The notes under the pieces: generated by a model
What the model was told of the DNA's origin: nothing
What the model saw: the letters and a program-made list of their open reading frames with translations, nothing else
The model's database searches: none
Shown: piece by piece, positions 33,947 through 37,237 of the stretch
Layout of the letters: each line of letters begins with the position of its first letter
How positions within the stretch are numbered: the stretch's first letter is position 1
Position numbers and translations under genes: made by a program
From: Acidobacteriota bacterium
GTDB lineage: Bacteria; Acidobacteriota; Terriglobia; Bryobacterales; Bryobacteraceae
Direction: 5' to 3'
Length of the DNA: 64,000 nucleotides
Assembly: GCA_025350695.1 (NCBI GenBank)
Contig: JANXXI010000076.1
Span: forward strand, 1-64,000

Positions 33947-34876
33947 TCACAGGTTTCCGCGCAACTCCACTTTCTTGTAGATTTCCTCAGTCTGAGCAAA
34001 CGTGGGAAATTGCACCCCGGGAAGGCAAGCTGATGCTGTTCCGGCCGCCACACCCCAATGAATCGCCTCCGGAAAAGTCTTGCCGGTCGCTAGCGCCCAA
34101 GTGAACGCGGCCGCCAAAGCATCGCCTGCTCCAATGGGAGAAAGGGCATCCACACGAGGCGGAATCGCTTCAATCACTTGACCGCCCTTTTTTCCAACCG
34201 CGCCCCTGCTACCAAGAGACAAGATCACCGATTCGGCTCCCATCGAAACAATGCGATCCACGGCATCCAGAAAATGCTGGCGAGTGAGCAAGGCCCGGTT
34301 CAACAACCGCTCCGCCTCCAACTGATTTGGCGCAACAGCCGTCGGTCCCGATTCAATGCCATGCAACAAGGAGTCGCCGTCGGTATCGAGCAGCGTGTTC
34401 ACACCTGCTCGCTTCGCCATCTCGATGATGCGTGAATAAAACGTAGGCGGGACACCTGGAGGCACGCTGCCGCAAATCATCAGCCATTGAGCGTCGGGCA
34501 AACTGGACTTCACGGCTTTCTCGATCTTGTCCAATTCCGCGGCGCTTAACGGAGATCCCCGTTCGTTCAACTTGATCGCTAACCCCTGCTTGTCGGAGAT
34601 TGTCAGATTGGTTCGCACTTCGCTCTTGACCCGAACCAACTCGGCGGGGAAACCGCAGGTGGCAACTAACTCTTCGAAATGTTGCCTCTGCTTTCCGCCA
34701 CAAGCGGCAATCGCTTTGGTTGGGGTTCCGAATGAGTGGATTACCTGCGAGGCATTAATTCCTCGGCCGCCAACCGCTTCGCTGCGCGATAGGATGTAGG
34801 CGCGATCCTCGAAAACCAGTCGATCAGCAAGGATCGTGCGGTCAATGGCGGGGTTTATTGTCAGTGTTACTATCAA
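33947..34876 (-). CDS. 1-phosphofructokinase/tagatose-6-phosphate kinase-type PfkB kinase
   Basis: 309 residues. IVTLTINPAIDRTI at the N-terminus and GGRGINASQVIHSFG are typical of the FruK/LacC branch, and SPIGAGDALAAAFTWAL near residue 247 is PfkB signature 2 with the catalytic Asp. The branch phosphorylates hexose-phosphates at C1 or C6. No PTS fructose genes are in the window, so the substrate is open. It is transcribed away from the repeat region at 34888. Confidence 0.9.
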   Translation of the reverse strand: MIVTLTINPAIDRTILADRLVFEDRAYILSRSEAVGGRGINASQVIHSFGTPTKAIAACGGKQRQHFEELVATCGFPAELVRVKSEVRTNLTISDKQGLAIKLNERGSPLSAAELDKIEKAVKSSLPDAQWLMICGSVPPGVPPTFYSRIIEMAKRAGVNTLLDTDGDSLLHGIESGPTAVAPNQLEAERLLNRALLTRQHFLDAVDRIVSMGAESVILSLGSRGAVGKKGGQVIEAIPPRVDALSPIGAGDALAAAFTWALATGKTFPEAIHWGVAAGTASACLPGVQFPTFAQTEEIYKKVELRGNL

Positions 34877-34887
34877 GCTACTATTCT

Positions 34888-35118
34888 AAACCACCACCCG
34901 CTCGAAGCCAGTGGGTTTGGTCGCGACTGAAAGGCGCCGGACAGCGGGTGAAGCCGCAAGCACTTGCAAGAGCGGCAACATCTTAATTTAGCCATGGAAC
35001 CCTTCGGAAAGATACCGCCGCCTCAGTGCTTTGCCCAAGGGATCATTTCACCAACTACTCAGCGCGGTGGCTGGAAGCAACTCGCCTGAAAGGGGGGGTA
35101 GACCGGGCACTGTTCACT
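34888..35118 (+). repeat. Structured ~235-bp direct repeat, copy 1
   Basis: This copy matches 35303-35537 along its whole length, including an identical 53-base block (34981-35033 against 35397-35449). Shared pairings are a 5' hairpin (CCACC...GTGG), GCAAG-CA-CTTGC, CCGCC/GGTGG enclosing GTGCT with AGCGC, and a CGCCT-GAA hairpin that has decayed in this copy. The end reads TAGACCGGGCAC. There is no coding frame I would support across it. Confidence 0.85.
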
Positions 35119-35302
35119 TAAGGTTTCTAGCAGGGACTATCGCTGCCGTCCAAACGGACATTTCGACTAGCCTCGATGGGAATCGGGGGATTGTTCAAAA
35201 CCCCAACACATGACCTGGTTCGGAAGAATCGCCCGACTCCATCGGGGGCTAGTCGACCGATCCTAAGTGACAGTGTTGGGTTTAGACCGGGCACATTGAA
35301 CT
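35119..35302 (+). repeat. Structured segment between the two repeats, sharing their 3' tail
   Basis: The body is unrelated to the flanking copies but ends with the same tail, TTTAGACCGGGCACATTGAA. GACTAGCC and CGATGG (35165-35179) pair with CCATCG and GGCTAGTC (35239-35254) around an inner GGGG...CCCC hairpin, giving a long stem-loop. Confidence 0.65.
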
Positions 35303-35537
35303 CAACCACCACCGACTCAAAGCCGGTGGGTTCGGTTGCGACTGAAAGTCAACGGACAGCGGCTGAATCCGCAAGCACTTGCAACAGCAGCAATCCTCTT
35401 AATTTAGCCATGGAACCCTTCGGAAAGATACCGCCGCCTCAGTGCTTTGTCCAAGGAATCATTTCACCAACTTCGCAGCACGGTGGCTGGAAGCAACTCG
35501 CCTGAAAGGCGGGGGTTTAGACCGGGCCCATTGAACT
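35303..35537 (+). repeat. Structured ~235-bp direct repeat, copy 2
   Basis: This is the better-preserved copy. CCACCGACT-CAA-AGCCGGTGG forms a 5' stem with one mismatch, and CGCCT-GAA-AGGCG a 3' hairpin. GTGCT pairs with AGCAC where copy 1 has AGCGC, a change that keeps pairing through G-U. The membrane glycosyltransferase gene starts 72 bases after it. Confidence 0.85.
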
Positions 35538-35608
35538 AAAACATCCAGCGAAGCGGCATTCCATTTCTTGTTGCGCAATGTCTTTTACTCTGGGATCATA
35601 GGCTGAAA

Positions 35609-37237
35609 ATGCCGGAATTTAAGGGTCGCGGTTCGAGGATTTCGCTAGTAATGATGTTGCTCTCCGCGCTGGCGATGCTCTGGGTAATCCCACGCTTGGG
35701 CCCCCATCACGATGAAAACTTCTTTGTCAAACCAGTATTCTTCCCTCAGTGGTCCCACACATTTGTGACCTTCGGCGGACACCAATATCCGCTAATGCTC
35801 CAAGCCTACATTGGAGCGCCAAAGGTGATCCTATACCAAGCGATCTTCACCATCATCAAGCCCTCCCTTTGGTCATTGCGCATCCCCGTGCTCGCGGCTA
35901 TTATTGGGTCCATATTTCTCATCCGATCCAGCTGCATCCGCGTTGGACATCCATTAACAGGAAATGCCCTGGCTACTTTTCTGGTTTGTTCTCCCTTAAT
36001 AATGCTGACCAATGTGTTCGACTGGGGCCCGGTTTGCATGCAAATGTTTCTGCTTGCACTGGCCGTCGCGTGTTGGTCAATGGGATTTAGTAAAGGCAGT
36101 GTCCCGTGGCTCGCGGCTTGCGCCTTTTTTGCAGGCGTCGGCATTTGGGAGAAAATGACGTTCGCTTTCTGCTTCGGCCCTATGCTTGCGATCCTATTTT
36201 GCGCGACCCTTTTGCGGCTTTCCCGGAAACAACAGATCCAATCAATCGTAGCTTCCGTTGTGGGATTATTGCTTGGCGTCTCACCCTTAATCGGGGCCAC
36301 CTACATATCCACAAGCCAGCCGCTCAAAGACTTGCTTACCTTTGAAAGCCTGTCTGTTTATCTGCTTAAATTCCAATTGCTCGGGCGGGCCATTACCGGT
36401 TCTTCGCTCGTCGGTTACATGACCTCGCCACAGCCTTATTGGCCAATGATTTCTAATGTTGTTACGCGGTCATTCGCACATGTCCTGGCAGTTCTACTTC
36501 ACTATGGTTTCCAGGCGCCGTCCCTTGTGCTGGCGATCCTGCTAGGCGCCGCGCTGGTTCCAGGGAAAACTCAAAAGCTGCGTTGGGCCTTGGTGGTTGG
36601 GGAGGTTTGCTCCTGGCTGGCTATGGTCAGTTTCCGTAATCTGGGCAGTTCGGCCCATCACACCGTTCTGCTGCTGCCGGTTCTGTTCGCGCTCTTGGCG
36701 CTCACCATTGAAGATGCTTCTCAATTGAATCCGCCATGGCGAACGTCGATCGGATGCTTCGCTTCGATCGTCTTGCTGTTGAATGTTGCTTCCTATGCGG
36801 ACTACATCATGAGGCTAAAGTACTTGCCTGTTCCGACGGTCTGGTCACGCGCTATCGGGCTTGCCGCTTCCCAAGCGATCAAGCAACAATCAATGGCCCT
36901 TTTCACCGACGATTGGGGGCTCGATAACGCCGTGATCTTGCTGTCGGCAGGCAAGGTAGTTGCATTCCCCGCAGTGCCAATCCACTGGCGGGAAGGCGTC
37001 GAGGCGCCTGATCGTGAGGCGGCTCTGAAAATAATGGAGCAACGCAACGCGCTCTTTCTGGGCTTCGCCGCCGGCAAGCAGTCATTTCCAATCGGGCCCG
37101 CGGTGCTTGGCGAATTGGCTTCCCAACATGGCCTCAGCCGCTGCGTGATAGCCTCGTTTCCTAATCGTCCTGGTGGCGAAACCGTAGTGGAACTCTACCG
37201 GTTTCTTCCATCACCCAACTGCGCGCCAAGCCCATAG
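35609..37237 (+). CDS. GT-C-like multi-pass membrane protein, probable glycosyltransferase
   Basis: 542 residues with roughly ten to twelve hydrophobic helices. The first loop GPHHDENFFVKPVFFPQW has an acidic pair in the position of the PMT/ArnT catalytic loop, and VFDWGPVCMQMFLL and GIWEKMTF resemble later GT39-type loops. The soluble C-terminal part (about 430-540) lies outside the membrane. Donor and acceptor are unknown. Its last 43 bases overlap the convergent cytochrome-WD40 gene. Confidence 0.65.
   Translation: MPEFKGRGSRISLVMMLLSALAMLWVIPRLGPHHDENFFVKPVFFPQWSHTFVTFGGHQYPLMLQAYIGAPKVILYQAIFTIIKPSLWSLRIPVLAAIIGSIFLIRSSCIRVGHPLTGNALATFLVCSPLIMLTNVFDWGPVCMQMFLLALAVACWSMGFSKGSVPWLAACAFFAGVGIWEKMTFAFCFGPMLAILFCATLLRLSRKQQIQSIVASVVGLLLGVSPLIGATYISTSQPLKDLLTFESLSVYLLKFQLLGRAITGSSLVGYMTSPQPYWPMISNVVTRSFAHVLAVLLHYGFQAPSLVLAILLGAALVPGKTQKLRWALVVGEVCSWLAMVSFRNLGSSAHHTVLLLPVLFALLALTIEDASQLNPPWRTSIGCFASIVLLLNVASYADYIMRLKYLPVPTVWSRAIGLAASQAIKQQSMALFTDDWGLDNAVILLSAGKVVAFPAVPIHWREGVEAPDREAALKIMEQRNALFLGFAAGKQSFPIGPAVLGELASQHGLSRCVIASFPNRPGGETVVELYRFLPSPNCAPSP

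Follow-up and report, generated by a model that had tools for sequence, protein, structure and literature searches.

The window analysed here is a stretch of 64,000 nucleotides in which a PfkB gene and a GT-C gene are divergent, and the space between them holds a repeat stretch that consists of two tandem copies of one element, A1 and A2, and of a third body, B, which interrupts A1. The coordinates of these features, together with related short forms from other genomes of the order Bryobacterales, are collected in Table 1.

Table 1. Features of the repeat stretch and its neighbours (window coordinates), with related short forms elsewhere.
Feature	Position or locus	Strand	Basis or remark
PfkB gene	33947-34876	minus	listed open reading frame; name from the original prediction
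A1, transposase-free IS200-type element, interrupted by B	34886..35300	-	both ends match IS200 elements
Hairpin region at the right end of A1: three small hairpins, two mismatches in the outer one	34886..34957	-	24-row right-end alignment
Left copy of the 10-bp target-site duplication of B, GGGGTAGACC	35095..35104	.	8/10 identical to right copy, zero offset
B, miniature inverted-repeat element (MITE), 174 bp	35105..35278	.	terminal inverted repeats, dispersed copies, stable hairpin
Right copy of the duplication, GGTTTAGACC	35279..35288	.	rest of A1 left end continues to 35300
A2, 235-bp copy with no interruption, tandem partner of A1	35301..35535	-	IS200 ends matched on both sides
Left-end hairpin region of A2	35477..35535	-	21-row left-end alignment
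TTTAG target beside A2 left end (CTAAA on plus strand)	35536..35540	-	CTAAA beyond 20/25 left ends listed
GT-C gene	35609-37237	plus	listed open reading frame; name from the original prediction
Short tnpA-less forms	L129, L130, L131 (G224, three places); L132 (G245); L133 (G256)		two A-like ends

The original prediction described two direct repeats of about 235 bp, and these are present: A1 and A2 align over 118 nt at 95% identity and over 93 nt at 85%, with start-to-start distances of 416 and 415, and their longest shared run is exactly the 53 bases that had been reported, while the outer limits move slightly, to 34886 for the start of A1 and to 35535 for the end of A2. On the transposase strand, the left end of A1 is its high-coordinate end and its right end lies at 34886. 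When B and one copy of its target-site duplication are taken out, 231 bp of A1 remain, which are identical to A2 at 210 positions in an end-to-end alignment. The interior is not clearly better conserved than the ends: differences between the copies affect 7 of 102 positions in the interior versus 14 of 130 in the ends (p 0.36) and 12 of 72 in the right end alone (p 0.05), counted on an alignment with a restored A1 of 232 bp, one base more than the 231. The pair-preserving difference claimed for the two copies, AGCGC in A1 and AGCAC in A2 opposite GTGCT, can be confirmed as such, though a lone change of this kind in a pair of copies carries little weight. Within the source genome (391 contigs) two A copies were found among the matches listed, and the 53-base block, which had been proposed for a search beyond the window, was seen in A1 and A2 alone. 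An exact 23-mer of this block gave no match in genome-contig and viral-contig collections, outside which the source genome may lie.

Both ends of A are homologous to those of IS200/IS605 elements with a Y1 TnpA. Compared with 41 genomes, the whole repeat stretch found matches in 5 genomes other than its own, confined there to the ends of the copies; several of them lie at contig edges, as multi-copy elements give, and one (G029, query 389-471) spans the A1/A2 junction. The ends of A2 are 75-94% identical to IS200-type elements found elsewhere in the order, and the right and left ends of A1 and A2 match the IS200 elements L031, L032, L132, L134 and L135 and, in part, a decayed copy in the source genome itself (L053/L136). 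L031 and L032 are elements of ~630 bp bounded by an A right end and an A left end, and the open frame between the A-like ends of L031 encodes a Y1_Tnp protein (PF01797, E 5.9e-47 in a profile search) with the motifs HVH and YIENQ. For IS200 subclass 1.1 the published signature is Y---Q together with a V or an I in the HuH motif (PMC6006769). The source genome has one match to the L031 transposase, 37% identical and with an internal TGA; this decayed tnpA copy lies between stretches that resemble the A ends (78% over 67 bases, 86% over 44 bases), and the outermost left-end tail of A is absent there. A1 and A2 contain no transposase gene, their frames being broken by stops and their insides showing no significant similarity to tnpA. 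The original prediction, which offered a noncoding RNA family or a non-autonomous element, named a match to the ends of a known insertion sequence as a finding that would count against it. Such a match exists at both ends, to IS200-type elements with a Y1 transposase, and with the transposase gene absent it supports the second of the two options.

The ends themselves carry the marks of this family. Subterminal hairpins occur at both ends of A1 and A2, and a short fixed target lies 5' of the left end, with no target duplication. Left ends follow TTTAG on the transposase strand: the complementary CTAAA stands beyond 20 of the 25 left ends listed, A2 included and the A1 left end excluded, with some of the 25 coming from one genome and the CTAAA of L102 already belonging to the neighbouring element, which begins there. 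The remaining five flanks read CTAGA, CTAAG, ATAAA, GTAAA and ATCAA. Across the elements, right ends mostly finish in TTTAG, TTCAG or TTGAG; A1 ends in TTTAG and A2 in TTGAG, and it is the latter that the left end of A1 abuts. There were 31 distinct right-end rows, of which 7 were left unused, and 29 distinct left-end rows, of which 8 were; most of those left aside were cut or shorter, but the decayed copy of the source genome and the A1 left end are also among them. Among the 24 aligned right ends, 95.0% of cells are paired and two pairs show compensatory changes, and among the 21 aligned left ends 97.9% are paired and three pairs are changed on both sides. For right and left ends alike, the covariation score and the share of paired cells lie above all 500 shuffles; the number of pairs changed on both sides is not exceptional (reached by 349/500 shuffles for the right ends and 67/500 for the left), and the number of further pair types was reached by 386/500 for the right ends, again not exceptional, and by 23/500 for the left. 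The outer right-end hairpin is mismatched in both A1 and A2, which is consistent with decay. As a separate, uncounted impression, the middle base of the terminal TTTAG or TTCAG of the right ends seems to covary with the base past the outer hairpin, TTT going with AAA and TTC with GAA in several elements, much like guide-target pairing; other elements do not fit.

Short elements of this kind are found elsewhere in the order. A2 was matched in 36 of 257 genomes, the source genome included, with up to three candidates scored per genome, and among the matches listed those outside the source genome fall within A2 positions 1-75 and 170-235 and leave positions 76-169 without a match. The short forms of G224, G245 and G256 have their two ends about 210-260 bp apart. 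The three interiors from G224 resemble each other, and the interiors of A, G224, G245 and G256 gave no mutual match at E 0.01, L131 having been entered in this comparison as 221 bp with a partial interior. The short form of G245 directly abuts a full element, and its interior, judged by eye, keeps both ends of the tnpA frame. Remnants of tnpA were also sought in the ~95-bp interior of A and could not be demonstrated: against the tnpA of six full elements there was no significant similarity, and 9% of shuffles did as well as the best of the six comparisons, which leaves a simple internal deletion unsupported as the origin of A. That this interior is instead captured cargo, such as a small RNA or a pfkB promoter brought by the IS200 ends, we consider very unlikely.

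The middle body, B, is of another kind. It is bounded by 18-bp terminal inverted repeats with the consensus CAACACTGTTCACTTAGG, the first three bases of the window copy being GGG, and it was matched at no fewer than 39 other places in the source genome, 40 of 67 candidates having been scored; the 39 are what remains of 46 rows after the window itself, one row that is an IS200 end and five second-strand rows of places already counted are subtracted, and two of them adjoin on C278. With up to 3 mismatches the terminal repeat occurs 46 times in the source genome versus 8 times for the reversed pattern, and with up to 1 mismatch its inner 15 bases occur 27 times versus 0 for the control. Terminal repeats are common to the dispersed copies of B, as in a MITE, and B has profile matches as well. 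The hairpin formed by B is very stable, as for a MITE hairpin, with a folding z of -7.05 against shuffles. By eye, the 10-bp target duplication of the B copies often has a TTAGC-like centre. Seven two-ended copies were examined for flanks at exactly 10 bp and zero offset, and four of them carry a duplication of this fixed length: L002 (10/10), L085 (9/10), L003 (8/10) and the window copy (8/10). The others give 4/10 (L005, whose start is possibly two bases off), 3/10 (L012) and 1/10 (L016), and two further places (0 and 1 of 10), at which the second end is missing, were set aside. Since the boundary of the duplication was first drawn on L002, the other three copies are independent support, and the chance of a match of at least 8/10 is 0.0004 for random bases.

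Outside the source genome, B had no match in the 40 other genomes searched, and one exact variant of its terminal repeat gave a single match outside the source genome among 200 genomes of the order. No ends like those of B, and hence none shared with an autonomous transposon, were found beside the source-genome transposase matches to PF01609 (six) and NF033592 (six) in the loci examined, and B-like terminal repeats in G157 (L073), L062 and L072 have no evident transposase adjoining, as far as reading of the open frames can tell. B is an orphan MITE family with about 40 places in the source genome, for which no helper transposase was found in these searches. Its ends may resemble those of IS4-type elements.

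The relation between these parts explains why the stretch looked modular. B sits inside the left-end tail of A1, and with B removed the restored left end of A1 reads like that of A2. The tail reported by the original prediction, TAGACCGGGC, is indeed found three times (35099-35108, 35283-35292 and 35518-35527), but the variable body with a constant tail that was deduced from it arises from nesting: a MITE flanked by terminal inverted repeats forms the middle body, and most of the recurring tail is the target-site duplication of this MITE. With B inside the left end of A1 and 10 bp of the tail there duplicated, the tail seems to belong to a third body. Beyond the 10-bp duplication the common tail extends for six bases, GGGCAC, the last three of which are alike in B and A independently. 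The first three, GGG, stand in the window copy where other B copies have CAA, and the same three bases follow the right duplicate, so that the tail repeat exceeds the length expected from a clean 10-bp duplication; the GGG at the start of B possibly stems from later conversion or an unusual cut.

With a probability of about 0.93, we regard the stretch as the leftovers of nested transposable elements, namely two transposase-free copies of an IS200-type element and the unrelated MITE B. An IS200-type element without a transposase gene would have inserted beside a TTTAG target and, judging by its family, would very likely have moved in single-stranded form, with a Y1 TnpA supplied in trans reading the end hairpins and making the cuts. 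A second copy may then have entered at the retained target and produced the head-to-tail pair A2-A1, an order of events suggested by a relative with full elements so arranged (tandems comprise two full elements in L031, and a full and a short one in L132). Finally, B, with its 18-bp inverted ends, would have transposed into A1, landing in the left-end tail and generating a 10-bp duplication there. All parts of the stretch by now look decayed. Counting against the nested elements are the imperfect duplication in the window (8/10), the GGG at the start of B and the poor match at 3 of the 7 two-ended B copies, as well as the lack of tnpA similarity in the A interior, the absence of the outermost left-end tail from the decayed copy and the failure to find a transposase with the ends of B in the loci examined. 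An orthologous empty site was sought and none was found, the one genome of the same genus having no close PfkB homologue.

Other explanations have to be measured against the same observations. The tail TAGACCGGGCAC on both sides of B would also be expected if the three bodies belonged to one family in which interiors are exchangeable, so that B would be an A with its interior replaced, and other genomes do have IS200 ends around non-matching interiors. This explanation is contradicted because the flanks of other B copies differ, homology stopping at B's own terminal repeats in the other copies shown; moreover, B lacks any A right end, and three other two-ended copies have 10-bp duplications of their own. 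We hold it to be the least probable of all. A structured noncoding RNA family, with a variable body and a constant tail and expressed from the intergenic region, would account for the predicted hairpins, for the compensatory changes in the end hairpins across homologues, for a minus strand of A2 that folds slightly better than shuffles (z -1.90, 7/200) and for one promoter-like site within A2. However, the compensatory changes fall in ends that flank tnpA in IS200 elements, and a conserved, covarying structure that lies outside mobile-element ends and recurs at several loci was looked for and not found; the plus strand of A2 folds like shuffles (z -0.35), a search of Rfam at gathering and relaxed thresholds gave one chance-level mir-6 match alone and nothing above threshold, the interior is seen in two tandem copies alone among the matches listed, and the middle body has the tail of A mainly through a target-site duplication. 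Promoter-like matches number two (0.3 expected), one per strand, which is no proof of transcription, and a terminator-like site was looked for and none found. With both ends of the A copies matching IS200-type elements and Rfam silent, the proposed noncoding RNA family is unsupported, and we give it only a slim chance.

Slighter still is the chance that A1 and A2 are not IS200 derivatives at all but REP- or REPIN-like hairpins that a REP-type or class 3 transposase mobilises. The several small hairpins would suit such an origin, and PMC6006769 describes class 3 TnpA for Acidobacteria, with about 600 hairpins in Solibacter. Against it, the transposase of the relatives has HVH and Y---Q, as in subclass 1.1 (IS200), and not the Y----Q given for class 3 (PMC6006769); there are two A copies in the genome among the matches listed; and the ends and the target resemble IS200 left and right ends. 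The repeats are ordinary mobile DNA and not a new RNA family.

Among described systems, the closest known kind to A1 and A2 is that of the PATEs (palindrome-associated transposable elements) of Haloquadratum, which are IS605-derived, transposase-free and struck by a second mini-element (PMC3119063). PATEs have no transposase, no terminal inverted repeats and no target duplication, carry near-terminal palindromes like those of IS605-type transposons, and are often interrupted by a second small element with the missing terminus beyond it (PMC3119063). A1 and A2 match in these features, including, in A1, the interruption, and differ in their Bryobacterales host, in their TnpA-only IS200-type relatives, in the target TTTAG and in numbering two copies among the matches listed. 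With TnpA-only IS200/IS605 elements they have in common the ends, the end hairpins and the left-end target; those relatives carry a Y1 transposase, whereas A1 and A2 lack tnpA and have an interior with no significant similarity to it. B, in turn, is like prokaryotic MITEs with target duplication in its 18-bp terminal repeats, its 10-bp duplication, its shortness, its many copies and its strong hairpin, and differs from them in that a mobilising transposase with the same ends was not found in the genome (PF01609 and NF033592 loci).

These results remove a candidate RNA family and illustrate that nested insertion can mimic a modular RNA. They also add short IS200 derivatives from four genomes of the order Bryobacterales, each genome having an interior of its own, and, in one genome, the MITE family represented by B. 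Between the right end of A1 and the listed PfkB start codon lie 9 bp (window 34874-34886), and from this position the element might affect the expression of pfkB and may have replaced its leader.
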